Below are positions 11,788 to 32,860 of a DNA stretch of 38,461 nt, piece by piece. The first letter of the stretch is position 1. Each line of letters opens with the position of its first letter. Source of the stretch: Bacillota bacterium (GTDB lineage Bacteria; Bacillota; Sulfobacillia; JAUYEG01); NCBI GenBank assembly GCA_030691505.1, contig JAUYEG010000146.1, positions 1 to 38,461 on the forward strand, written 5' to 3'. Both the position numbers and the translations under genes were made by a program. The notes beneath the pieces are model-generated. The model saw only the letters and a program-made list of their open reading frames with translations, was not told the DNA's origin and made no database searches.

Positions 11788-11982
11788 ATAGTCCTCCTCG
11801 CAGGCAGCACGCGACTGTCCTGAACATGATACCATGCGGGGCCAAGTCAAGCGCCCCCCGCGGAAACGCTCGCTCCGGCAGCGCAACCCGCCCAGGATCC
11901 GTACAGGCGTTGTCTGAAGGTGCCAGGCATGGTAAGCTCCACATGGGCCCCCGCTTACGTCGTCTCGCCGGGAGTGGCGCCA

Positions 11983-12306
11983 ATGATTAAAGTCCGCATA
12001 TCCTCCAAGGGCCAGGTGGTCATTCCGGTCGAGGTGCGCACCCGGTACAATATCGATACCGGCACTGAGTTGGAGTTGCGCGAGGCTGCGGGGTTCATCT
12101 CCCTTCACCCGCTCCCCGAGGATCCTGTCGCCGCCGGCCGCGGTTTCCTGCGCGCGGGGCGCCAGGAGTCGCTGATCTCCCTGCTTTTGCGAGAAAGGCA
12201 ATCTTCTCCGGGCAGAGAGCCGAGGAAGGGCCGGGGGCGTGATGCGGCGGATCAGTCCAAGGCCGCCGCCGTGCAGCGGACGTTGTTCGACCCCGGGGCG
12301 CAATAA
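11983..12306 (+). CDS. AbrB/SpoVT-type DNA-binding protein (probable antitoxin)
   Basis: The first 45 of 107 residues form a swapped-hairpin AbrB domain: VRISSKGQVVIPVEVRTRY followed by TGTELELREAAGFISLHP. The remaining 60 residues are polar and basic and probably bind the partner protein. The ATG at 11983 has GGGAG eight bases upstream; the open frame before it is not homologous. It is followed 48 bases later by a PIN-domain gene on the same strand, the usual antitoxin-toxin order of VapBC modules, in which the AbrB protein neutralises the PIN ribonuclease and represses the operon. Confidence 0.88.
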   Translation: MIKVRISSKGQVVIPVEVRTRYNIDTGTELELREAAGFISLHPLPEDPVAAGRGFLRAGRQESLISLLLRERQSSPGREPRKGRGRDAADQSKAAAVQRTLFDPGAQ

Positions 12307-12354
12307 GGCTTCCGGGGCCAGCCGATCTTTTGACCGGTAGGGAGGGGCTCTGAG

Positions 12355-12828
12355 GTGCCGATCCTACCCGACCCGCAGCTTGTCGTGCTAGACTCCTCAG
12401 CGCTGCTCATCTACCTCGGTGACGAACGTGGCGCTGACAAAGTCCAGCGCGTTCTCAGCGCCGCCACCGGAGGACGCGTGTCCGTCGTCTCCCCCACCCT
12501 GTGCTACTGCGAGGCCCTGATGGTGGCCGCGCCCGAGCTCGGACCGGAAAGGATGGACGACTTCCGGGCGACTATCGAGCAACTCCCCGTCAAGGCCCTT
12601 CCTCTGGACCTCGATGCCGCGCTTGCGATCGCCGGCGCCCGGATCGCGTGGGCGCTGCAGCTGGCCGACGCGGCCGCCGCCGTGGCCGCGCAGAGGCGGG
12701 ATGCAATCCTGCTTACGGCTAACCCCCAGTTCACATCGTTTGAGCGCGCAGGCGGCCGGGTCTACTGGCTCGGCCCCGAAGAGCGCCGCAACGAACTCGT
12801 GCTCTTTGACCCTCTGGCCTGCTTCTGA
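12355..12828 (+). CDS. PIN-domain protein (VapC-like toxin)
   Basis: The protein has 157 residues and a PIN ribonuclease fold. Three of the usual acidic positions are visible: D13-region VVLDSSALLIYLG, the glutamate in LCYCEALM, and the aspartate in QLADAAAAVAA. The fourth, usually in a T-x-D-x-x-F motif, reads LLTANPQFTSF, with Asn for Asp. VapC proteins cut RNA with Mg2+ bound by these acids, so activity may be reduced; many VapC-like proteins carry this substitution. The start is GTG at 12355 after GGGAGGGG. It directly follows the AbrB gene, and its stop overlaps the Nudix start by one base (TGATG). Confidence 0.87.
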   Translation: MPILPDPQLVVLDSSALLIYLGDERGADKVQRVLSAATGGRVSVVSPTLCYCEALMVAAPELGPERMDDFRATIEQLPVKALPLDLDAALAIAGARIAWALQLADAAAAVAAQRRDAILLTANPQFTSFERAGGRVYWLGPEERRNELVLFDPLACF

Positions 12829-13349
12829 TGCGCTATACCGTCGTCCCCCGCGCGGTGGTCCTCTGCGGCCGGCACATGCTGCTCGTTCGCTCTTCTCCCG
12901 GCCTGCGGTCCCCCTCGTCGGGCCGGTGGCACCTGCCGGGCGGCGAGATACGCGCCGGGGAGAGCCCGCAGCGCGCAATTGCCCGCGTGGTGGCCGAGCG
13001 CAGCGCGCTGCGGGTAGAGGTGTGCGGCTGCCTTGATGCCCTGGTCCGCCGCGGCCCGGACCCCGAGACGGGCCGTCAGGTGCCGCTGCTGCACCTATTC
13101 TTCGTTTGCCGGCCGGCATCCGACAGCAGCCCGGACCTCCTGCCCGGCGCCGGCGCACACACGGCAGACCCGAGTGCCGAGGGACCGTCACCCGGTGAGC
13201 CGGACGCTCTGCACATCGGACCTCCCGGCGGGGCCGACTGGGGCTGGACCGACCTGGCCTCGGGACTTGGCGCGCTCAAGCACGACGTGGTCGGGGAGGC
13301 TGTGATTGAACACATCGCGGCGGCGCTCGGCCCGGACCCTCAAGCTTAG
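12828..13349 (+). CDS. Nudix-fold protein with a degenerate Nudix box
   Basis: This 173-residue protein has the Nudix fold pattern: VVPRAVVLCGRHMLLVRSS, then GRWHLPGGEIRAGESPQRA. The box that normally reads G-x5-E-x7-REUxEExGU is here G-x5-E followed by ARVVAERSALRV: the first Glu of REU is Val and the second Glu of EE is Arg. These residues bind the metal, so hydrolysis is doubtful. A Pro/Ser/Asp-rich insert (residues 90-130) follows. The gene starts one base inside the PIN gene's stop, so its translation is coupled to the AbrB-PIN pair. It overlaps the end of the convergent methyltransferase gene by four bases. Confidence 0.8.
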   Translation: MRYTVVPRAVVLCGRHMLLVRSSPGLRSPSSGRWHLPGGEIRAGESPQRAIARVVAERSALRVEVCGCLDALVRRGPDPETGRQVPLLHLFFVCRPASDSSPDLLPGAGAHTADPSAEGPSPGEPDALHIGPPGGADWGWTDLASGLGALKHDVVGEAVIEHIAAALGPDPQA

Positions 13350-14197
13350 GGGCAATCATCCCTGCCCGGCGGCCCGGGCCGCCGGTCGGCGGGATCGCGC
13401 CCCCTGTCCTTGTCACCGCTGCGATCCCTGTCACGGCTGCGGGCTGCGATCCGTTGCCGTAGCGCCTCAAAGGCGATCACCGAAGCGGCATCCGCGATGG
13501 TGAGTGACTGCGCAAACCTGCGCCCATAGGGGATGCGCAGCACTACGTCGGCCTGGTTCATGAATGACCTCGTGATGCCCCGTTTTTCCCCGCCAATGAC
13601 GAGAAACAGCGGTCCCGCGAGGTCGGCCTCGTAGATCGACCGGGCTCCCGCACCGGTCCCCGTGCAGGCCACGCGCATGCCGAGCCCTTGGAAACAGCGG
13701 GCGGCATCTGCCGCGGTAGGGGCAACCGCAACGGCGATCAGCTCGGAGGCGCCGGCCGAGACCCGGGCGACGGTTCCCCCCGCGGACATCCAGTTGCGGG
13801 GCCTGAGGACCAGCCCGTCCGCCCCGGCGGCATAAAGGGCACGGACCGCGGCCCCGAAGTCAAGCGGGTCCTCAACACCATCCAGCATCGCCACAAACGG
13901 CCGCGGGCCCGTCCCGGGCAGGTCGTGCAGGCTGCCGAACCTTCTCGGCCCGGTGACCGCCACGATGCCGCCGTGGGTTGCGCCGCTCGCCTTGGCGGCG
14001 ATGTCGCCGGCGCCGACCCGCTCGACACGGATGCCGCGCACCTGCGCCAGGGCCGATACGGCCAGCACCTCGGGGTTGGTCGTGTCCTCCTGAACGTAGA
14101 CGGCTTCGATATCCCTGCTTTTCGCCTCGATCACGGCACGGACCGAGATGTGCCCCTCAAGGACGGCTGTGACGCCTTTAGGCTGCCCTGTCTCCAT
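13346..14197 (-). CDS. SPOUT (TrmH/SpoU family) RNA 2'-O-methyltransferase
   Basis: The protein has 283 residues: an N-terminal substrate-binding domain (residues 1-95) and a knotted SPOUT domain. Motif 1 reads MLDGVEDPLDFGAAVRALYAAG (in parts), motif 2 LFLVIGGEKRGI, and motif 3 RRFAQSLTIADAASVIAFEALRQR (in parts). Motif 1 has Asp where DPxNxG normally has Asn, and motif 3 has SLTIA for SLNVA, so two conserved asparagines are changed. The C-terminal 35 residues are an Arg/Asp-rich tail of RDRD and GDKDRGRD type, possibly for RNA binding. Start: ATG at 14197; an AGGGGAGGGG lies about 14 bases upstream, slightly far. Last gene of the minus-strand run that starts with the GlcD-like gene. Confidence 0.85.
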   Translation of the reverse strand: METGQPKGVTAVLEGHISVRAVIEAKSRDIEAVYVQEDTTNPEVLAVSALAQVRGIRVERVGAGDIAAKASGATHGGIVAVTGPRRFGSLHDLPGTGPRPFVAMLDGVEDPLDFGAAVRALYAAGADGLVLRPRNWMSAGGTVARVSAGASELIAVAVAPTAADAARCFQGLGMRVACTGTGAGARSIYEADLAGPLFLVIGGEKRGITRSFMNQADVVLRIPYGRRFAQSLTIADAASVIAFEALRQRIAARSRDRDRSGDKDRGRDPADRRPGPPGRDDCP

Positions 14198-14241
14198 GGT
14201 CGCCGCCAGCCCCTCCCCTTGCAGCGCTAATCCAAGCTGGC

Positions 14242-14922
14242 TTACCTGGCCCCGCGAATCCCACCACGGGACCAGATCAGGGCCCCGGTCGGGCACGCAG
14301 CCGCGCACGCGGGGCTGCCGCCGCACAGGTCGCAGACCCAGGCCTTACCCTCAAGAAGCAGAGGACCGCCGAAGGCGCACACCCCGGCGCATTCCCCACA
14401 CCCAGTGCACCGCTCGTGGTCTGCGCATACGGCCCGCGTCGCTTCGTGGCGACTCAGAGCGCCCTGCGGGCACGCCGTCACGCAACGGGCCACGCCGCAC
14501 TGCCGGCACACGAGCGGCCCGGGCAGGCGGATCAGGGCCGGCACCGACGGACAGGCCTGAACGCAGGCGCCGCAGCTGTCGCACCGGCCCTCCTCAACAA
14601 GCATGCGCGGGACCAGGCGCCCCGAGTCCGCGTGCTCCGCCGCCACAGCGCCGGCGCGGACCCTCCGGACCCGCCAGACCACCCGCCCGTTGGGGTCGGG
14701 ACAGGTGATCAGATCGGTATGCGGCATCCAATCGTTGGGCTCGACGATCTCCCGTTCCTTGGCCACCAGCATCGGCAACATGGCGCTGAGCGCCCAAATA
14801 CAGACGAATTTGCCCGCGGGGACGAACAGCTTGCCCGCCCGGACCTCAAAGTAGTCCCCGGGCCGGTGCGGCAGGTCGCAGAAACCCCGCACCTCCTGGA
14901 CCTCGACACGCAGGTCATACAC
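14242..14922 (-). CDS. TIGR04076-like domain fused to a four-cluster ferredoxin domain
   Basis: The protein has 226 residues. Residues 1-100 resemble the small uncharacterised TIGR04076 family: YDLRVEVQEVRGFC, GDYFEVRAGKLFVP, FVCIWALSAMLPML and LITCPDPNGRVVWRVRR in order. Residues 115-220 hold four cysteine clusters of the DMSO-reductase-subunit-B kind: CDSCGACVQACP, CRQCGVARCVTACP, CTGCGECAGVCAF and CDLCGGSPACAAACP. Each could carry a [4Fe-4S] centre. I choose the GTG at 14922, with AGAGGA about ten bases upstream inside the preceding gene; it overlaps the GlcF-like gene by eight bases. The coupling suggests that it passes electrons from the GlcD/GlcF pair to another carrier. The role of the TIGR04076 part is unknown. 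Confidence 0.82.
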   Translation of the reverse strand: MYDLRVEVQEVRGFCDLPHRPGDYFEVRAGKLFVPAGKFVCIWALSAMLPMLVAKEREIVEPNDWMPHTDLITCPDPNGRVVWRVRRVRAGAVAAEHADSGRLVPRMLVEEGRCDSCGACVQACPSVPALIRLPGPLVCRQCGVARCVTACPQGALSRHEATRAVCADHERCTGCGECAGVCAFGGPLLLEGKAWVCDLCGGSPACAAACPTGALIWSRGGIRGAR

Positions 14923-16354
14923 CGCCGCCAAGTCCTCTCGCGATGAGTTCGATGAGGTGGACCGTACGCTGGCCGCCCCCTGCACGGTCGAGGCCGTTGG
15001 CCAGCCACGCCATACAGCCCGGACAGGCCGTGGCCACCAGTTGGGCGCCCGTGGAGGCTAATTCGCCCGCCCGGCGGTCGAGCATCTGGGCGCTGGCCGC
15101 GACGTGCTCGAGGGCGAACGTGCCCCCAAAGCCGCAGCAGCTGTCGGGACGGGGAGCCTCCCGGAACCCGCCGCCAGCCAAGGCGCGCAACGCCTCGCGC
15201 GGCTGGGAATGGACGCCGAGCAGGCGGCGCAGGTGGCAGGGGTCGTGGTACGTCACCGACGCGCTGATCGGCGGGCCCGCCAAGTGCTCCCCGATCCCGA
15301 GTTCCCAGGCCAGCGCGGTCGCGTCGACCGACTTGGCCGCGACGTCGCTCACCGCATCCATGGTCAGTCCCGCGGCCGCCAGCGCCTCTGTCCCGCCGCT
15401 CATCCGGCCGAAAAGGTACGCGGGATAGTCGTGCCGGAATGCCACGGCGCACGAGGGACAAAGGAACGCAAGCCTGGAGCCCGGAGAATCCAGATGGCCG
15501 GCGAGAGCCTTGAGATTTTCCGCGGCGAGCCGCCTCGCGGTGTCCGCATCGCCGGCGTATGCCGCCGGGGCGCCGCAGCAGACCAGGCCCTCCGGCACGA
15601 CCACACGTCTCCCGAGACGGGCAAAAACCTCCTGCGCCGCCGTCAGCAATTCGGGATACCCAAGGTCGACCAGACACCCCGGGTAGATGACAACAGGCGC
15701 ATCCGCCGGCGCAACATACTGGCGGCGCCCCGCCGCCAACGCCGGCGCCGTAGCGGGCCGCCTCTTCCTCATCCGTGGCAGCAGCATCCGCTGCCCGAAT
15801 ACCGGCAGGCGCCAGATGCTGCGCACATGGCGCGGGTCCACGGGCGACGGGCGGAAGAGCAGCGCTTGGACCAGCCCAAGCGCCGCGGCCGCGGCCCGCA
15901 GCACGGCAGGCCGGCCAAAAAGGCCGCGAACGACCGCCGCCTTGACCGGCGGCAGTCCGATCCGCCGCTGGAGCAGGCATCGCCCCTCAAGCAGCATGTA
16001 GCCCGTGTCTGCCCCGCTGGGACACTCCAGACGGCAGCGGCCGCAGTTGACGCAGCGGGTCAGGCGGGCGTAGAGCTCGCGGTCCGGGCGCAGGTCACCG
16101 CCGAGCTCTTCGAGCAGCAGCCCGAGCTTGCCGCGGGCAACGTCGGTCTCCCGGCCGGACTCGGCAAACACGGGGCACGAAGCGCGGCACTGCCCGCAGC
16201 GCATGCACTTTTGCAGCTCACCGAGCAGGGAACGCACATCCTCGCCGGCGACCGCGGAGACCCGCTCGAACACGTTGGCGACAATGCCGTACTGCCCGCA
16301 TCCCTGGCCGCCGGACGGCCCTTGCCCGGCTCCCCCCGCGCTCGCGGTGCTCAA
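14915..16354 (-). CDS. GlcF/HdrD-like Fe-S subunit of a 2-hydroxyacid dehydrogenase
   Basis: This 479-residue protein has two N-terminal ferredoxin motifs (CMRCGQCRASCP at about residue 50 and CVNCGRCRLECP at about 102). Two CCG domains follow: YPGCLVDLGYPELL with CCGAPAAYAGD, and TYHDPCHLRRLLG with CCGFGGTFALEH and ATACPGCM. The order matches GlcF, LldE and HdrD-type subunits, which take electrons from an FAD dehydrogenase. It begins with a TTG that overlaps the stop of the GlcD-like gene (TTGA), and ends inside the next gene's start. The first 22 residues are Gly-rich and poorly conserved, so a later start is conceivable. The CCG motifs appear complete. Confidence 0.9.
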   Translation of the reverse strand: MSTASAGGAGQGPSGGQGCGQYGIVANVFERVSAVAGEDVRSLLGELQKCMRCGQCRASCPVFAESGRETDVARGKLGLLLEELGGDLRPDRELYARLTRCVNCGRCRLECPSGADTGYMLLEGRCLLQRRIGLPPVKAAVVRGLFGRPAVLRAAAAALGLVQALLFRPSPVDPRHVRSIWRLPVFGQRMLLPRMRKRRPATAPALAAGRRQYVAPADAPVVIYPGCLVDLGYPELLTAAQEVFARLGRRVVVPEGLVCCGAPAAYAGDADTARRLAAENLKALAGHLDSPGSRLAFLCPSCAVAFRHDYPAYLFGRMSGGTEALAAAGLTMDAVSDVAAKSVDATALAWELGIGEHLAGPPISASVTYHDPCHLRRLLGVHSQPREALRALAGGGFREAPRPDSCCGFGGTFALEHVAASAQMLDRRAGELASTGAQLVATACPGCMAWLANGLDRAGGGQRTVHLIELIARGLGGGV

Positions 16355-17811
16355 CCGCGGCCCTCCCGGCCGAGCCCCATCTTGCCGGGATTCATGATCC
16401 CCGCCGGGTCAAGCGCTTTCTTGATGGCGCGCATGACCCCAAGCGCGGGGCCGTGTTCCTCGTCCATGTACGCGGCGCGCACTAGCCCCACGCCGTGCTC
16501 CGCGGTCGTCGTGCCGTTGATGCGCAAGGCAAGCCGGTGGATTTCGTCGGCGGCCTGATGCGCCCGGTCCACCTCGGCAAGATCGCGCATGTCGATAAGC
16601 GGTGCGGCGTGCAGGTTGCCGTCGCCGATGTGCCCATAGGTCAGGATGGGGAAACCGTGGCGGCGGGAGATCTCCTGGATGGCGGCAAGGGCCGCCGGAA
16701 CCTGGATGATCGGGACACAGATGTCCTCGCCGGCGCAGACGCGCGTGGCTTCCTCGCGAACGCGCCCCGACGCGGCGCCGACCACGGCCCGCGCCTGCCA
16801 CAGCGCATTGACCCGCGCGGGATCCTCGGCCCACTCCACGTGATTGGCCCTCCGCCGGCAGACGGCGGCAAGCTTCTCGGCCTCATACGTGACAGCGGGA
16901 GGCGGCCCATCCACCTGGAAAAACAGCACCCCCTCGCCCTGCGGCAGGACCAGCCCGGGAACATGCAGCATCGCCGCCCGGCACGCCGTGCGGTCCATTA
17001 TCTCGATCGCCGCCGGGCGCAGCCGCGCCCGGAAGACGTCGATCACCGTCTCTCCGGCGGCCTCGATGGAGCAAAAGGCGGCCATGACAACGCCGCGCCG
17101 CTCGGGCACGGGGATCACTTTCAGCCGGATTCGTGTGATGACGCCGAGCGTGCCCTCGCTCCCGACAAAGAGCCTGGTCAGGTCGTATCCAGACACGCTC
17201 TTGAGCGCGCGCGACCGGAGCCCGCCCGTGGTGATGACAGTCCCGTCGGCCAGCACAACCTCAAGGCCAAGAACGTACTCGGCTGTCGCCCCGTACTTGA
17301 CGGCGCGCATCCCGCTGGTGTTGCCCGCGACCATGCCGCCGATGGTGCACATCTGGCTCGATCCCGGATCGGGCGGAAAGAAGAAACCCTGCGGCTCCAG
17401 CGCCGCGTTGAGCGTGGCGTGCACCACGCCCGGCTCAACGATGACCTGGAGGTTGTCAAGGTCGGTCTCGAGCACGCGGTTCATGCGCGAGAGATCGAGG
17501 ACGACGCCGCCGCGCGCAGGCACGGGGCCGCCGGTCTGAGCCGTGCCCGCTCCGCGCGGTGTGACCGGCACGCCGTGCTCGGCGGCGGCCGCGACGACCG
17601 CGGCGACCTCCGCGGTTGTCTGCGGCTGGACGACAACGTCGGGCAGGCCCGGCTTGAGCCTGGTGAGAAAAGACGCGTCGTAGGAATAGACAATCAGGTC
17701 CTGATGCCGCGTCAGGACTCTTTCCGCGGAAACCAGCGCGCGGAGGCTGCGAACAAGCGCACTGCTTGCGCCGGCGGGCCTGGAAGTGCCGTTCTCCGGG
17801 CTGGCGGTCAT
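16351..17811 (-). CDS. GlcD-like FAD-linked oxidase (2-hydroxyacid dehydrogenase)
   Basis: This 486-residue FAD protein has the vanillyl-alcohol-oxidase-type FAD domain (VVVQPQTTAEVAAVV, then TPRGAGTAQTGG and GSEGTLGVITRIRL) and the C-terminal FAD-oxidase domain with the metal/substrate histidines in TYGHIGDGNLHAAPL and the AEHGVGL motif. Such enzymes oxidise glycolate, D-lactate or D-2-hydroxyglutarate. The start is ATG at 17811, with CAGGAGGAATGG upstream. It is the first gene of a tight operon with the GlcF-like and ferredoxin-fusion genes. Which hydroxyacid is used cannot be told; D-lactate or glycolate are the usual ones. It faces an M20-like gene across 169 bases. Confidence 0.92.
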   Translation of the reverse strand: MTASPENGTSRPAGASSALVRSLRALVSAERVLTRHQDLIVYSYDASFLTRLKPGLPDVVVQPQTTAEVAAVVAAAAEHGVPVTPRGAGTAQTGGPVPARGGVVLDLSRMNRVLETDLDNLQVIVEPGVVHATLNAALEPQGFFFPPDPGSSQMCTIGGMVAGNTSGMRAVKYGATAEYVLGLEVVLADGTVITTGGLRSRALKSVSGYDLTRLFVGSEGTLGVITRIRLKVIPVPERRGVVMAAFCSIEAAGETVIDVFRARLRPAAIEIMDRTACRAAMLHVPGLVLPQGEGVLFFQVDGPPPAVTYEAEKLAAVCRRRANHVEWAEDPARVNALWQARAVVGAASGRVREEATRVCAGEDICVPIIQVPAALAAIQEISRRHGFPILTYGHIGDGNLHAAPLIDMRDLAEVDRAHQAADEIHRLALRINGTTTAEHGVGLVRAAYMDEEHGPALGVMRAIKKALDPAGIMNPGKMGLGREGRG

Positions 17812-17980
17812 GAACCATTCCTCCTGGCGAAAACCGCAACTTGCATGCTCCGGATGCGATTCGTCCAGCCCCAAGAGGTTACCTGCCCCGGCCGCCGCGC
17901 GGCCGTCGAATGGAGGCAGGACTCAGCCGTAAGACACACAGAACACACGACAGCGACCCGTATCACGAGGAGGGCATGCA

Positions 17981-21047: not shown

Positions 21048-22028
21048 TCAGGCCGGGTCCAGCACGCCGGCCTGCAGCAGCAGGAGCGACCACGTCTCCA
21101 TAGCCTGAGCGTACGCCCTGACCTGGTCAAGATTGAAAAGCGAACCTACTTGCAGCGTCCCGCCCGGCTCCCGCCGCAGCCGGACCCCCGCCCGGCGGCG
21201 CGCGAGGTCCACCTGCACGACAGGACGGCGCCGGCGGCGGCGCGCGACAGGACCGGGCAAGCCGCGGCCGCCAGGACCGGCTGCCGCGGGAACGACCAGA
21301 AGAAAGGCAAGCCCGAAATGCACCTGCCCCACCGGGCTTGTGTCGTCGTTGATCGCCCCGAGGAGCGATAGGGCCGCCCCCGGCGGGAACATGACCTCCT
21401 CGCGCAGCTCCCGCCGCAAGCCGCGAAACAGCGGGTGCTCGTCCAGGCGCGCGGTGGGCGCGGGGCGCACCGCCTCGCGCAGTGAGCTGTCCAGGCGCAC
21501 CCGCCTCTTGAGCCGCTTGGCCTGCGAGGTCCGTGGGGGCTGGTCACCGGAGCGGGCCGGTTGACCGGATTGGCTGGCCGCGCCCGGCCGGACCTCACGG
21601 CCGCCCAGGCGGGCGGCGCGGCCCGGGGTTGACGACATTGGGGGGCGGGCCGACGGCGCAGAACCGGCCAGACGTCTTCGTGCCTCGCCTACCCCAAATA
21701 CCAGCGGTGAAGGCAGAACATCGCCCGCGTTGACGTGGCCCCCGAGCCCGATGGAGTACAGGCGTCCCAGCCGCGGATCGCCCCCGCCCGCCCGCTGGAA
21801 CATGAGGTACAGGGGACCCTGGCCCGGCACGGGCGAGGTGCGGACGGTCACGTACGGAATGATCTGTTTGTAGCGGGTGTCCTGCTCTGCATGCCGTCTG
21901 GGCATGAAGAGGTACTCGCCGAGGGCCGTCCGCAGGTAGGGCCCCGCATCCGCCGCAAACCCCTGAAACGGCCGCGCCCCGGCGAAAAGAGTGTCCCGTG
22001 GGATCACCATCACCAGCTCATCTCTCAT
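21048..22028 (-). CDS. COG4112-like Nudix-fold phosphoesterase with large insertions
   Basis: The N-terminal part (DELVMVIPRDTLF, then EQDTRYKQIIPYV and SIGLGGHVNAGD) and the central part (RGLRRELREEVMF, LLGAINDDTSPVGQVHFGLAF) match the COG4112 predicted-phosphoesterase family. The usual length is about 200 residues; this one has about 326. About 95 residues of Pro/Arg/Ser-rich sequence (residues 115-210) are inserted between the GGH and RELREEV parts of the Nudix box, and an Arg-rich loop (RRRRRRP) follows near residue 265. The frame is open and overlaps the MBL stop by four bases (ATGA), so it is coupled. The insertions are oddly low in complexity; the Nudix catalytic Glu residues are retained. 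Confidence 0.8.
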   Translation of the reverse strand: MRDELVMVIPRDTLFAGARPFQGFAADAGPYLRTALGEYLFMPRRHAEQDTRYKQIIPYVTVRTSPVPGQGPLYLMFQRAGGGDPRLGRLYSIGLGGHVNAGDVLPSPLVFGVGEARRRLAGSAPSARPPMSSTPGRAARLGGREVRPGAASQSGQPARSGDQPPRTSQAKRLKRRVRLDSSLREAVRPAPTARLDEHPLFRGLRRELREEVMFPPGAALSLLGAINDDTSPVGQVHFGLAFLLVVPAAAGPGGRGLPGPVARRRRRRPVVQVDLARRRAGVRLRREPGGTLQVGSLFNLDQVRAYAQAMETWSLLLLQAGVLDPA

Positions 22029-22903
22029 CCCGCGATGATCCCGTCCTTCTGGCACTCCTTGTATAGCGTCTCGAGGTTGGGCCGGTGCAGCCGGTGATAG
22101 CCCTCTTCCGCAGCTCGGGGAAACTCATCCGCACGGGCCAGGATCTCATTGAGCCCCAGACCCTTGGCTGCGTAGTCGGCCAGTTGTTGTTTGGTTTCGA
22201 CGAAGTACGCGATCTGCCGGTCGGCCTCGGCGGCCGCGCGCTGTGTGTCGCAGACCGGCCCATGTCCCGGGATCAGGACCTCCGGCGCAAGATCCTTGAT
22301 CCGCCGCAGCGCGGTTATCCAGTGCGGCGTGTAGGCCTGGCGCACGAAGGGGTACCGGCCGACAAAGAACAGGTCGCCCCCAAAGATCACGCCCGCATCG
22401 GGGACGCGGACGATGGAGTGCCCCGGGCTGTGTCCGCCGGTATGCTCGATGATTGCGACGCGTTCAGACTGCCCGCCGCGGCCGCCCCTCTCCGGCGCGG
22501 GACCGAGGTGGATTGTCAGCCCGTGCCGGAAAGTGAGGTGCGGCAGCATCACCTGCAGTCCCTTGAGCCGTTCGCCGCCGGGCGACTCCTGGGCCGTGCG
22601 TATGGCGGCAGGGGACCAGGATGCGGCGAGGTTTTCCTGCATGAGCTTGCGGCAGCTTTCGCTGGCAATCACGGGCACGCCGAAGACCTGATTGCCGAAC
22701 GTGTGATCAGCGTGGTTGTGCGTGTTGACCACGGCCATGATCCGGGCGGGCGTGCTCTTGGCCACGAAAGCCGCGATGTCCCGTCCGTCCGCCGGCGAGT
22801 TCATCGTGTCGATCACGAGGGTCAGATCCTGCCCGGCAATGAATCCCGCGTTGACCCGGGCGTGCATCACGCCGATGCCGGGAAAGATGATGATCTCCTC
22901 CAT
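22025..22903 (-). CDS. Metallo-beta-lactamase-fold hydrolase
   Basis: This 292-residue protein has the MBL motifs: THNHADHTFGN (HxHxDH), HTGGHSPGHS, GGDLFFVGR and GHGPV. These bind two metals in an active site that hydrolyses thioesters, lactones or phosphoesters. It starts at ATG 22903, with GAGGAGGTG upstream; the longer frame reads into a 9-base repeat. It lies between the dihydroorotase-like amidohydrolase and the Nudix gene, and its stop overlaps the Nudix start. The substrate is unknown. Confidence 0.88.
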   Translation of the reverse strand: MEEIIIFPGIGVMHARVNAGFIAGQDLTLVIDTMNSPADGRDIAAFVAKSTPARIMAVVNTHNHADHTFGNQVFGVPVIASESCRKLMQENLAASWSPAAIRTAQESPGGERLKGLQVMLPHLTFRHGLTIHLGPAPERGGRGGQSERVAIIEHTGGHSPGHSIVRVPDAGVIFGGDLFFVGRYPFVRQAYTPHWITALRRIKDLAPEVLIPGHGPVCDTQRAAAEADRQIAYFVETKQQLADYAAKGLGLNEILARADEFPRAAEEGYHRLHRPNLETLYKECQKDGIIAG

Positions 22904-25254: not shown

Positions 25255-25431
25255 GGCGATCCCTCCGAAGTATGCCTGTTGGCGGCTTGGGGTGTCAGTT
25301 CAAGCCTGACATATGGTTCCCCTCCCGGCGGGCGCGCTTGTCAGCGTCGTCGCAGGCATCCGCCCGGGCACGGAGGGGCCGCGGCAAGCTGGAGCGAAAC
25401 TACTTGAAACGAAAAGACGAGGTGACGCATC

Positions 25432-26946
25432 TTGGCCAAGAGGCTCCGGTACTGCGTAAATGGAGAGTGGAAAGAGTCCCTGACGACCACCTGCATGCCC
25501 GTGACCAACTCCAGCACCGGGGAAATCATGGCCGAGGCCCCCTGCTGCACCGTCGAGGAAGTCAATGCGGCGGTCGCCGCCGCGGAAGCGGCGTTTCCCG
25601 GATGGGCGGGGACGCCTGTCACCAAGCGCTCCCGCCTGATGTTCGATTTCAGGGCGGTGCTGGAAAAGCATCTCGAGGAGCTCACACTCCTCGTTTCCAT
25701 GGAGCTCGGCAAGAACCTCGATGAAGCCAGGGGCGACGTAATCAAAGCCATCGAGGTCGTCGAGCTGGCGTCTGCTGTCCCCGTGACCATGCAGGGCGAC
25801 TCGCTGATGAACGTGTCGGACGGAATAGACACGGTCATGTACCGGGAGCCCGTGGGCGTGTTTGCCGGAATCGTGCCGTTTAACTTCCCGGCGATGATCC
25901 CCTTTGGTTGGATGATCCCCCTGTGCGTGGCCACGGGCAACACGTTTGTCCTCAAGGCCTCGAGCCAGACGCCGCAGACAGCCATGCGCATCCTGGAGCT
26001 TTTCTACGAAGTGGGACTGCCGAGGGGAGTCGTCAACCTCGTGACGTGCAGCCGCAAGGAGGCCGGGCTGCTGCTGGAGCATCCTGGAGTCAGGGGCATT
26101 TCCTACGTCGGTTCGACCAAGGTCGGCCGGCACATCTACGCCACCGCGGCGGCCCATGGTAAGAGGGTCCAGGTTCTGGGCGAGGCCAAGAACCACGCCC
26201 TGGTGCTCAGGGACGCGAACATCGAGATGGCGGCCCGGACCGTGATCAACTCCGGTTTCGGCTGCGCGGGTATGCGGTGCATGGCGCTGCCGGTGGTCAC
26301 GGTGGAAGAGGCGGTTGCGGACGAGTTTGTCTCGCTCCTCGTGCAGTTGGCCAGGGAGCGCAGGATGGGCTGCGCCTATGATCCGCAGACGGAGCTTGGA
26401 CCGGTGGTTTCGGCGGAGCACAAAGAGTCGGTCGTGGCCTGGATTGACCGCGGTGCGGCGGAGGGCGCCCGGCTCGTGCTCGACGGCCGGGACACCGTCG
26501 TGCCCGGTTTTGAGGGCGGGTATTTTATCGGCCCGACAATCCTCGATCACGTGACCCCCGCGATGTCGGTCGGCAACGACGAGATCTTCGGGCCCGTTGT
26601 CTGCGTCAAGCGTGTGCGCGACTTCGAGGAGGGCATCACCCTCATGAACTCCAGCCCCTACGCTAACGGGAGTTGCATTTTCACGGAAAGCGGCCTCTAC
26701 GCCCGCGAGTTTGCCAGGCGGACCCATGCGGGCATGGTCGGGGTCAATGTCGGCATACCGGTGCCGATCTCGGTCTTCCCGTTCTGCGGCCACAAGAACT
26801 CGTTTATGGGCGACCTTCATGTGATGGGGCGCGACGGGCTGGCTTTCTACACCGAGGCCAAGACCGTTACCACCAGGTGGTTCGGGGCTGCCAAAGCCGA
26901 GGGAAAACTATCTACCTGGGAGGGAACCATCACCAGGGTCAAGTAG
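25432..26946 (+). CDS. mmsA: CoA-acylating methylmalonate-semialdehyde dehydrogenase
   Basis: This 504-residue aldehyde dehydrogenase belongs to the MmsA/IolA class, which turns methylmalonate semialdehyde (or malonate semialdehyde) plus CoA into propionyl-CoA or acetyl-CoA. It has GIVPFNFPAMIPF for cofactor binding, SYVGSTKVGRHIY, LGEAKNHAL (the family has Asn in place of the usual general-base Glu), and the nucleophile at about C283 in CAGMRCMAL. The C-terminal GHKNSFMGDLHVMGRDGLAFYT (in parts) is typical. The start is TTG at 25432 with GAGGTG eight bases upstream. It is divergent from panB by 177 bases; valine or inositol catabolism would be the usual context, but no companion genes are here. 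Confidence 0.92.
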   Translation: MAKRLRYCVNGEWKESLTTTCMPVTNSSTGEIMAEAPCCTVEEVNAAVAAAEAAFPGWAGTPVTKRSRLMFDFRAVLEKHLEELTLLVSMELGKNLDEARGDVIKAIEVVELASAVPVTMQGDSLMNVSDGIDTVMYREPVGVFAGIVPFNFPAMIPFGWMIPLCVATGNTFVLKASSQTPQTAMRILELFYEVGLPRGVVNLVTCSRKEAGLLLEHPGVRGISYVGSTKVGRHIYATAAAHGKRVQVLGEAKNHALVLRDANIEMAARTVINSGFGCAGMRCMALPVVTVEEAVADEFVSLLVQLARERRMGCAYDPQTELGPVVSAEHKESVVAWIDRGAAEGARLVLDGRDTVVPGFEGGYFIGPTILDHVTPAMSVGNDEIFGPVVCVKRVRDFEEGITLMNSSPYANGSCIFTESGLYAREFARRTHAGMVGVNVGIPVPISVFPFCGHKNSFMGDLHVMGRDGLAFYTEAKTVTTRWFGAAKAEGKLSTWEGTITRVK

Positions 26947-30086: not shown

Positions 30087-31769
30087 TTGTTTGACCTTGT
30101 GATCAGGAACGGGACCGTCATCGACGGATCCGGCGGCCCGCGTTTTCGCGGCGATGTCGGCATCAAAGGCCAGCGTATTGCGGCGGTTGCCCGGTGGCCG
30201 CAGGAGCTTAGCCCCGACGACGGCCCTGCCGCGGCCAGGCGTGTGCTCGACGTGGCGGCCAGGGTCGTGGCGCCGGGTTTCTTCGATATCCATTCGCACG
30301 CCGACCGCGGCATTCTGACCAACCCGCGCGCGGAGAACTGCCTATCTCAAGGGATCACGTCCGTCATCGGCGGCAACTGCGGTGGGTCGGCGGCGCCGCT
30401 CAACGACCGGATGGTTGACCGGCTGGTGGCGGCAGGCCGGGAAGCCGGGCGCGAGGTCGAGCGTGCCGACATCGACTGGCGCACCATGGCTGAGTTCCTG
30501 GCCAAGGTCGAAACGGCCGGCCCTGGGGTCAACTTTGGTCTGTTCGCCGGCCAGGGCACCGTGCGCAACTTCGTCATGGGCACCGATGCGCGGGCCCCGT
30601 CGACGGGGGAACTTGCCCTCATGCAGGACGAGGTGGAGTTGGCGATGCGCGGCGGGGCCCTGGGGCTGTCTACGGGCCGCAGCTACCTGCCGGGACGCCA
30701 CGCCGGCGAGGACGAGATCGTCGAGCTATGCGCCCCGGTGGCCGCCGCCGGGGGCCTGTACTGCACGCACCTGCCGAGCGAGGGGGCCGAGCTGTTCGAG
30801 GCCCTTGAGGAGGCGTTCAGCATCGGCTGGCGGACCGGCCTGCCCATCCAGATCGTGCACCTCAAGGTGTACGGCAAGCCCAATTTCGGCAAGGCGCCCC
30901 GGGCGCTGCGCATGATCGAGGCCGCACGCGAGGAAGGCGTGGATGTTCTCTTCGACGTCTACCCCTATCACTTCTCCCAGATCGGCACGCTGCGGAGGGT
31001 GTTCGGCGCCGGCCTGCCGGCGGGGATGGGGCCGGCCCAGGCTGCGGCCGAATTGCGGCGGCCGGAGACCGTCGGCGAGATTGTGGCGCGCGAGGTCCCC
31101 GCGGTGCTTGCCGACCGGTTTCGACTGACGGCGCTGCCGGTCACCGGCATTCTCCTGTGCGGCAAGACGCCGGAACACCCCGGACGGTGCCTGGCGGAGG
31201 TCGCGGCAGCCCTGGGGCACATCAGCGCGCCCGCACTCGTCGTGCCGGACGGGGAGATCGCGCGGGCGGAGTACATCGGCGGCCTCATCCGGGCGGCGGC
31301 GGAGCTCTATGCGCTCAACGACGGGGCCGTAAAGGTCTCCGGGCAGATGGACGAAGGTGAGGTTAGATTGATCCTTCGTCACCCGCTCGGCATGTTCGGC
31401 ACGGACGCCGGGGTCATCGACGGGCAACGCGATCCGCAGGGAACGGTTCATCCCCGCGCATACGGGACCTACCCGAGAATCCTTGGCCGGTACGTACGCG
31501 AGACGGGGACCCTCGGCCTGGAAGAGGCGATCCGCAAGGCAACGTCGCTCCCCGCCGCGCGCGTTGGGGCCGCCGAACGCGGACTGCTTAAGGCCGGCAA
31601 GTACGCGGATATCACGGTCTTTGACCCAAGCACGGTAATCGATACGGCGACGCCCGACCAGCCCCTGACGTACAGCCGGGGCATCGAGTGGGTCCTTGTC
31701 AACGGAGCGGTCGCCTGGGACTGCGGTGTGTGCACCGGAGCCCGGTCCGGCAAGGTGCTGCGTTTCTGA
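30087..31769 (+). CDS. N-acyl-D-amino-acid deacylase (D-aminoacylase)
   Basis: This 560-residue amidohydrolase removes acyl groups from N-acyl-D-amino acids. It has GFFDIHSHAD, the metal-binding cysteine in GGNCGGSAAPL, YCTHLPSEG, IQIVHLKVYGKP, FGTDAG, and the family block HPRAYGTYPRILGRYVRE (in parts) near residue 455. Length matches the family. The start is TTG at 30087 with GAGGAGG eight bases before it; this is a good site. The gene is divergent from the OLD-like gene by 160 bases and is followed, 50 bases on, by a GGDEF gene. Confidence 0.92.
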   Translation: MFDLVIRNGTVIDGSGGPRFRGDVGIKGQRIAAVARWPQELSPDDGPAAARRVLDVAARVVAPGFFDIHSHADRGILTNPRAENCLSQGITSVIGGNCGGSAAPLNDRMVDRLVAAGREAGREVERADIDWRTMAEFLAKVETAGPGVNFGLFAGQGTVRNFVMGTDARAPSTGELALMQDEVELAMRGGALGLSTGRSYLPGRHAGEDEIVELCAPVAAAGGLYCTHLPSEGAELFEALEEAFSIGWRTGLPIQIVHLKVYGKPNFGKAPRALRMIEAAREEGVDVLFDVYPYHFSQIGTLRRVFGAGLPAGMGPAQAAAELRRPETVGEIVAREVPAVLADRFRLTALPVTGILLCGKTPEHPGRCLAEVAAALGHISAPALVVPDGEIARAEYIGGLIRAAAELYALNDGAVKVSGQMDEGEVRLILRHPLGMFGTDAGVIDGQRDPQGTVHPRAYGTYPRILGRYVRETGTLGLEEAIRKATSLPAARVGAAERGLLKAGKYADITVFDPSTVIDTATPDQPLTYSRGIEWVLVNGAVAWDCGVCTGARSGKVLRF

Positions 31770-31819
31770 GCCGCGTCCCGGCAGCGCGGCTGGCAGACTG
31801 AGCGGAGGGGGCCAAGCAA

Positions 31820-32860
31820 ATGCTTGACCTGTCATTGGATGCCCTGACGGGCTTGCCCAACCTCATCGGGATGGTTGATGAACTGAGGGAACTGCCCGCG
31901 GGCCACGGGGCGTTCGTGGGCATGGACATCGAGGGACTCGGGGCGGTAAACCAGGAACACGGCATGGCGGTCGGAGACAGGGTCATCAAGGCCCTTGCCG
32001 ACAGCCTTGCCTCGGTCTGCACATCTCAGGCCGGAACGGCGCGCGCCTTTCGCTGTGGCGGCGACGAGTTTGTGCTCCTCCTCGAGGACATTGACCGTCC
32101 CGCCGCGCAGCAGATGGCAGAGGCCTGCCGGCGGCGGTTCGCGGAAGGCCTGCACGCGGAGGGACTCCCCGGGGTCGACCTGCGGTACTCCGTGGCGGCC
32201 TACCCCGAGGACGGCACGACCCTTGCTCAGCTGTGCAGCAAGTTCCACCTGGAGCTGTACCATACGGGCAATGCGCCGGCGGCCGTGGCGGGTGCCCCGT
32301 CGTCATGGGTCGAGTCGCTGCTGGGGTGGTTTATCGAGAGGCTTGCGGAAACCGTGCACGAGCTGCGTCTGGCACGCCACCTCGCCTTGACGGACGGCAT
32401 TTCGGGCCTTGCCAACCACCGGGCGGGTGAAGCAGTGCTCGATCGGATGGTAGCCCAGTTCGCCCGGGACAGAGAGCCCTTCTCCGTGCTGTTTGTCGAC
32501 GGGGACAACCTCAAGGGCTACAACGACACCCTGGGCTACGAGGGCGGCAATCAGATGATCCGCCAGCTGAGCGCCCTGCTGAGCAGCAGCATCCGGGCTG
32601 GGGATTCTGTCTGCCGGTGGCTGTCGGGCGACGAATTCCTCGTCATCCTTCCCGGCGCCGACCGCGAAGTCGCCCTGAGCATCGCCGAGCGCCTGCGTCG
32701 TGAGGTCGCGGCGGCATCCCAGGGCTGGCCGCTGCCGGTGACTGTCTCGATCGGAGTGGCCGCTTGCCCGGAGGACGGCGAGGACGCGGCCAATTTGCTC
32801 GGGCTCGCAACCATGGCCAACAGCCAGGCCAAGCAGGGCGGCAAAAACCGGGTGGTGTGA
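31820..32860 (+). CDS. Tandem GGDEF-domain protein (putative diguanylate cyclase)
   Basis: The protein has 346 residues and two GGDEF domains with nothing else. Domain 1 (about 1-150) starts DALTGLPN and has RCGGDEFVLL, but no RxxD inhibitory site. Domain 2 (about 185-346) has GISGLANHR, VLFVDGDNLKGYND and CRWLSGDEFLVIL, with an RAGD inhibitory site at the right distance before SGDEF. Both have the metal Asp. No membrane segment, sensory domain or EAL domain is present. If active it makes cyclic di-GMP from GTP in the cytoplasm. Start: ATG at 31820 with GGAGGGGG upstream. It may be co-transcribed with the D-aminoacylase gene. Confidence 0.9.
   Translation: MLDLSLDALTGLPNLIGMVDELRELPAGHGAFVGMDIEGLGAVNQEHGMAVGDRVIKALADSLASVCTSQAGTARAFRCGGDEFVLLLEDIDRPAAQQMAEACRRRFAEGLHAEGLPGVDLRYSVAAYPEDGTTLAQLCSKFHLELYHTGNAPAAVAGAPSSWVESLLGWFIERLAETVHELRLARHLALTDGISGLANHRAGEAVLDRMVAQFARDREPFSVLFVDGDNLKGYNDTLGYEGGNQMIRQLSALLSSSIRAGDSVCRWLSGDEFLVILPGADREVALSIAERLRREVAAASQGWPLPVTVSIGVAACPEDGEDAANLLGLATMANSQAKQGGKNRVV

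Follow-up and report, generated by a model that had tools for sequence, protein, structure and literature searches.

A TIGR04076–ferredoxin fusion gene overlapping glcF belongs to a family linked to aldehyde ferredoxin oxidoreductase

The TIGR04076 family has no assigned function, and a gene from a metagenome-assembled genome of the class Sulfobacillia (Bacillota), in which a domain of this family is joined to a polyferredoxin and lies against glcF, raises the question of whether its neighbours reveal what the domain does. A sequence-only reading of the locus had proposed that they do, the fusion carrying electrons from 2-hydroxyacid oxidation to another acceptor. The DNA analysed, hereafter the window, is the whole stretch of 38,461 nucleotides and corresponds to contig C164 of this 2.88-Mb genome, which is 95.9% complete.

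The fusion gene and its neighbours in the window

The gene lies at 14242–14922 on the minus strand and, translated from a GTG start at 14922, encodes 226 amino acids followed by a stop. Residues 1–89 (14656–14922) match the NCBIfam profile TIGR04076.1 over model positions 1–90 of 91 with an E value of 2.4e-18, and the score of 66.5 bits is twice the curated cut-off of 33 bits. The four [4Fe-4S] motifs are contained in residues 105–218, of which residues 105–185 are matched by Pfam Fer4_7, Fer4_9 and others. They are built from 16 cysteines arranged as CxxC...C motifs at residues 114–124, 139–151, 172–182 and 197–210, and all 16 are invariant in an alignment of 30 fusions. By Pfam, alignment and fold, this region (residues 114–210; 14290–14583, minus strand) resembles the small subunits AorA and WOR5. 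In the alignment, a spacer of 14 residues (14509–14550, minus strand) separates the last cysteine of cluster I from the first cysteine of cluster II. The AF2 model of the protein has a pLDDT of 86. Both parts of the fusion, the N-terminal TIGR04076 domain and the four ferredoxin clusters behind it, are as the sequence-only reading had described them. A chance ORF or a frame artefact is ruled out by the same architecture in homologues, the fusion being present in 18 other genomes among 154 of the class.

Upstream, on the same strand, lies a GlcF-like gene (14915–16354) with Fer4_8 and two CCG domains by Pfam/NCBIfam, whose stop overlaps the start of the fusion by 8 bp; the overlap that had been noted is thus real. 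It is preceded by a GlcD-like gene (16351–17874, minus strand) for a FAD-linked 2-hydroxyacid dehydrogenase with FAD_binding_4 and FAD-oxidase_C domains (Pfam/NCBIfam), which overlaps the GlcF gene by 4 bp and scores 386 bits against TIGR00387, under the equivalog cut-off of 567.9. Because of these tight overlaps, the GlcD, GlcF and fusion genes very likely form one operon. When the class was searched with the window GlcF, the closest relative was 41% identical. On the other side of the fusion, the longest frame of a SpoU/RlmB-like methyltransferase ORF (13346–14326, minus strand) overlaps the 3' end of the fusion gene, an overlap that an internal ATG near 14198 would abolish.

Amino-acid and peptide breakdown accounts for many of the other genes in the window. 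Ornithine fermentation genes occupy 3–2946 on the minus strand and include OrtB (818 bits, cut-off 550), OrtA (123.5, cut-off 70) and the 2,4-diaminopentanoate dehydrogenase Ord (491 bits, cut-off 400). At 11920–12828 (plus strand), a small AbrB-like ORF followed by a PIN-like ORF looks, by eye, like a type II toxin-antitoxin pair. The long ORFs at 25300–26820, 21048–22055 and 30726–31835, all on the minus strand, were without a hit in Pfam or NCBIfam under the thresholds applied.

Conserved gene neighbourhood of the family

The neighbourhood was surveyed from both sides. With the N-terminal domain as query, a scan of about 85,000 genomes/species returned 59 loci, taken with flanks of up to 10 kb on each side; the query was built from fusions and so favours the fusion subtype, which accounts for 30 of the 59. 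A glcD or glcF match was found near the domain at none of the 59 loci within these flanks, and neither gene adjoins any of the fusions fetched from relatives. In the same way, none of 29 GlcF loci of the class has TIGR04076 or a polyferredoxin within about 1.5 kb on each flank. The linkage to GlcD/GlcF is therefore ruled out as a conserved context. The idea that the position beside glcD/glcF discloses the function of the domain fails on this survey, which finds the order in this genome only; the link may be true for this one genome. Gene order from a single genome may, as a warning, mislead on function.

The gene that does recur is that of aldehyde ferredoxin oxidoreductase (AOR), assigned by Pfam AFOR_N and AFOR_C. 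Of the 59 loci, 45 have it close by, almost without exception immediately downstream and in the same orientation. Among the fusions, 20 of 30, mostly from Bacillota, have an AOR nearby and one further fusion is cut by a contig end; the order of fusion then AOR is found in Bacillota, in Desulfovibrio cuneatus and in one contig labelled Chloroflexi. Standalone domains have an AOR nearby in 25 of 29 loci, mostly as three separate genes in the order TIGR04076 (about 90 aa), four-cluster ferredoxin (about 172 aa) and AOR (about 600 aa). This three-gene form occurs in Aminicenantes, Acidobacteria, Desulfobacterota, Fibrobacterota, KSB1 and the Asgard archaea Thor- and Heimdallarchaeota. Partners that are found both separate and fused bear a classic mark of common function. 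Additionally, in a second sample of 398 genomes spread evenly over the phylum, some of which were also in the first scan, AOR is the next gene after the fusion in 12 of 13 cases outside the class, the 13th being at a contig end.

Across the other genomes, the fusion thus goes with tungsten AORs, and its placement behind glcD/glcF belongs to this genome only. The hope that the locus would give the orphan domain a functional context is borne out in part: a context has been gained, and it is AOR (tungsten) chemistry instead of 2-hydroxyacid oxidation. What is new is the standing of TIGR04076 as a partner domain of AOR, one in which three cysteines are near-invariant and whose predicted fold resembles XdhC. 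The conserved linkage, in bacteria and Asgard archaea, makes this partnership testable, and the family is present in the culturable species Desulforamulus putei, D. aeronauticus and Desulfovibrio cuneatus. AOR small subunits are already known; no TIGR04076 domain on such subunits turned up in the open papers searched, in which the single paper naming TIGR04076 concerns another context. The isethionate microcompartment cluster of Bilophila includes a TIGR04076 member, for which a redox role was guessed (PMC8667426).

Amino-acid transporters adjoin several of the AOR-linked loci. Together with the amino-acid and peptide breakdown genes of the window, this fits, circumstantially, a role of the wider family in oxidising amino-acid-derived aldehydes.

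The ferredoxin half, its spacer and the orphan fusions

In sequence searches, the family member L065 matches AorA (8c0z_C) with an E value of 1.8e-27, and also 9mqx_E of a bifurcating AOR and 6x6u_B/6x1o_B of WOR5. The window protein alone also matches AOR small subunits; a methanogen polyferredoxin scores higher, over a short stretch only. Its AF2 model gives fold matches to 9mqx (Z 15.9), 6x1o (Z 14.9), 6x6u (Z 14.8) and 8c0z (Z 13.3), so that, with four [4Fe-4S] motifs, its double-ferredoxin fold is nearest to that of AOR subunits. The polyferredoxin had been called DmsB-like: the polyferredoxin stands, and the likeness to DmsB is only distant, the nearest solved relatives being AOR small subunits.

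The spacer between clusters I and II follows the presence of AOR. Every AOR-linked fusion has 30 residues here (in one case 29), and the three solved AOR subunits (WOR5, AorA and the bifurcating AOR) have 29–30, counted from alignments. In the orphan fusions, which have no AOR beside them, it ranges from 14 to 37 residues with divergent sequence, and the 14 residues of the window protein are the shortest. Since clusters FS1 and FS2 of AorA link to the catalytic AorB (PMC10413684), the spacer plausibly faces the AOR catalytic subunit, by equivalence to AorA. Its length could be a simple sequence test for ferredoxins of this kind that still work with an AOR.

The window gene departs from the overall rule of its family in having no AOR beside it. 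Two AORs are encoded elsewhere in this genome, on contigs C41 and C154. Their identities to a fusion-linked AOR are 51% and 40%, compared with 62–68% for the AORs of most AOR-linked genomes of the class, and each comes with a four-cluster ferredoxin of its own, encoded immediately upstream or in fusion. The AOR on C41 (3825–6374 of locus L139, minus strand) has the ferredoxin in the same frame of 887 aa, an apparent AorA-AorB fusion. As each has a ferredoxin of its own, neither obviously needs the window fusion, which is therefore best read as (a relative of) a former AOR small subunit that has lost its partner. In the other orphan genomes, the nearest readable AORs likewise have their own four-cluster ferredoxin. 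The apparent loss of the AOR could be an assembly gap, given the completeness of the genome.

A tree of the fusions, built with the spacer removed, implies that the orphan state arose independently at least three times and groups the window gene with four orphans of its class, next to an AOR-linked sister. An independent-pairs test of the spacer against AOR loss holds three firmly supported AOR/orphan contrasts, too few for significance. The idea that the orphans form one clade with a shared partner is ruled out by these multiple origins and by the lack of a shared neighbour: elsewhere they lie beside unrelated genes for sigma factors, GGDEF proteins, TldD/PmbA, tRNA synthetases and amidohydrolases. 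The last is the case for two orphans from metagenome-assembled genomes titled Angelakisella and Ruthenibacterium (Oscillospiraceae; L075 1782–2558 and L076 9950–10687), with no AOR within the flanking DNA covered.

Possible functions and likeness to known systems

For the fusion itself, the explanation that we prefer, with about even confidence, is a soluble four-cluster carrier, formerly an AOR small subunit, that now most likely serves GlcDF. The family would consist of AOR-type electron-transfer (small) subunits with an N-terminal TIGR04076 domain, encoded mostly directly upstream of AOR, and, by analogy with AorA and WOR5, would use the four [4Fe-4S] clusters to relay electrons between the tungsten enzyme and a carrier outside it. 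In the lineage of the window, the matching AOR gene would have gone, the presumed AOR-facing spacer would have shrunk from 30 to 14 residues, and the fusion gene, now overlapping glcF, would take electrons from the 2-hydroxyacid dehydrogenase GlcD (FAD)/GlcF (Fe-S, CCG) to another acceptor. Perhaps, then, an orphaned relative of the AOR small subunit was recruited to GlcDF. Against this explanation, the GlcDF linkage is seen in one genome, and GlcDF has no general need of the fusion, because the GlcD-GlcF pairs of the class do without such a ferredoxin.

The last point would also suit a chance neighbourhood, in which a solitary carrier gene with another partner has come to lie after glcF and does no more than share its transcript; so would the roughly ten orphan fusions of other genomes that have no common neighbour. 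We consider this somewhat unlikely, as the 8-bp overlap and the shared strand suggest translational coupling, unusual for unrelated insertions, and the fusion and GlcDF are both redox proteins. The fusion might instead still serve an AOR in trans, giving one of the genome's two AORs an additional electron carrier, its placement at glcF being incidental. The AOR linkage of the family and the presence of two AOR genes speak for this, and so does the nearest relative, G014, where an AOR is encoded in the same orientation about 3.4 kb upstream. The ferredoxins that these AORs and those nearest to other orphans already possess, their low identity to the fusion-linked AOR and the loss of the AOR-type spacer in the window protein make it rather improbable.

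The N-terminal domain may have a task other than electron transfer. Its cysteines C15, C41 and C74 are kept in 41 of the 42 TIGR04076 family members compared, and a search for a solved sequence relative returned nothing under E 0.3. When the domain is modelled by itself with AF2 (pLDDT 92), its only close matches are XdhC-family structures, namely 2we8 (Z 7.8, VIA), 3on5 (7.5) and 2we7 (7.0), the next match being at 3.4, and one profile alignment places C74 on a near-universal XdhC cysteine, Cys82 in R. capsulatus XdhC (PMC2997495). XdhC proteins bind the molybdenum cofactor and help its sulfuration (PMC2997495). TIGR04076 could in this case be a small XdhC-like module that handles a metallopterin cofactor or a persulfide for AOR, not electrons, and is fused for delivery. 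The hhalign score of TIGR04076 against XdhC is above those of all 200 column permutations; its probability is weak (0.6–2.4%) and, alone, not significant as a demonstration of homology by profile search. Foldseek gives an E value of 0.09 for the domain against XdhC, and a Z below 8 can reflect a common arrangement. The orphan genes, furthermore, retain the domain though no AOR adjoins, and the standalone TIGR04076 paralogues of the class are not found beside AOR. The predicted relationship to XdhC is a lead, and such a module is, on balance, on the unlikely side.

A combined reading would make TIGR04076 the dedicated partner of a subclade of tungsten AORs from Asgard archaea to Bacillota, separate or fused, whose XdhC-like fold and three cysteines handle sulfur or the tungsten-pterin; in several lineages, this one included, the fusion would have come apart from AOR and found new use as a general electron carrier, which in the window would serve 2-hydroxyacid oxidation. 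Taken as a whole, we judge it quite unlikely.

Among known systems, XdhC_CoxI, the molybdenum cofactor chaperones, offers the best structural likeness of TIGR04076, a conserved cysteine before the last strand aligning in both; in contrast, there is no significant sequence match, and TIGR04076 has two extra near-invariant cysteines and no XdhC Rossmann domain. The standalone TIGR04076 proteins of NCBIfam (about 90 aa) share C15, C41 and C74 with residues 1–89 of the window protein, which score above their cut-off, but the window copy is joined to a polyferredoxin. This genome holds two standalone paralogues, in other contexts, and in the class most such paralogues are near neither AOR nor GlcDF. 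As in the GlcDF/LdhH-type 2-hydroxyacid dehydrogenases, the window has GlcD-like and GlcF-like genes, here upstream of the fusion, whereas the GlcD-GlcF pairs elsewhere in the class are without this third gene. The solved AorA/WOR5-type subunits, including the WorS type (8c0z_C, 6x6u_B, 9mqx), do not carry the N-terminal TIGR04076 domain, and the window copy differs from them by its 14-residue spacer and the missing AOR neighbour. They are nevertheless its nearest relatives by sequence and fold, with a common order of the four cluster motifs, a gene directly beside AOR as in most of the fusion family, and a spacer of about 30 residues that is common to the AOR-linked fusions.
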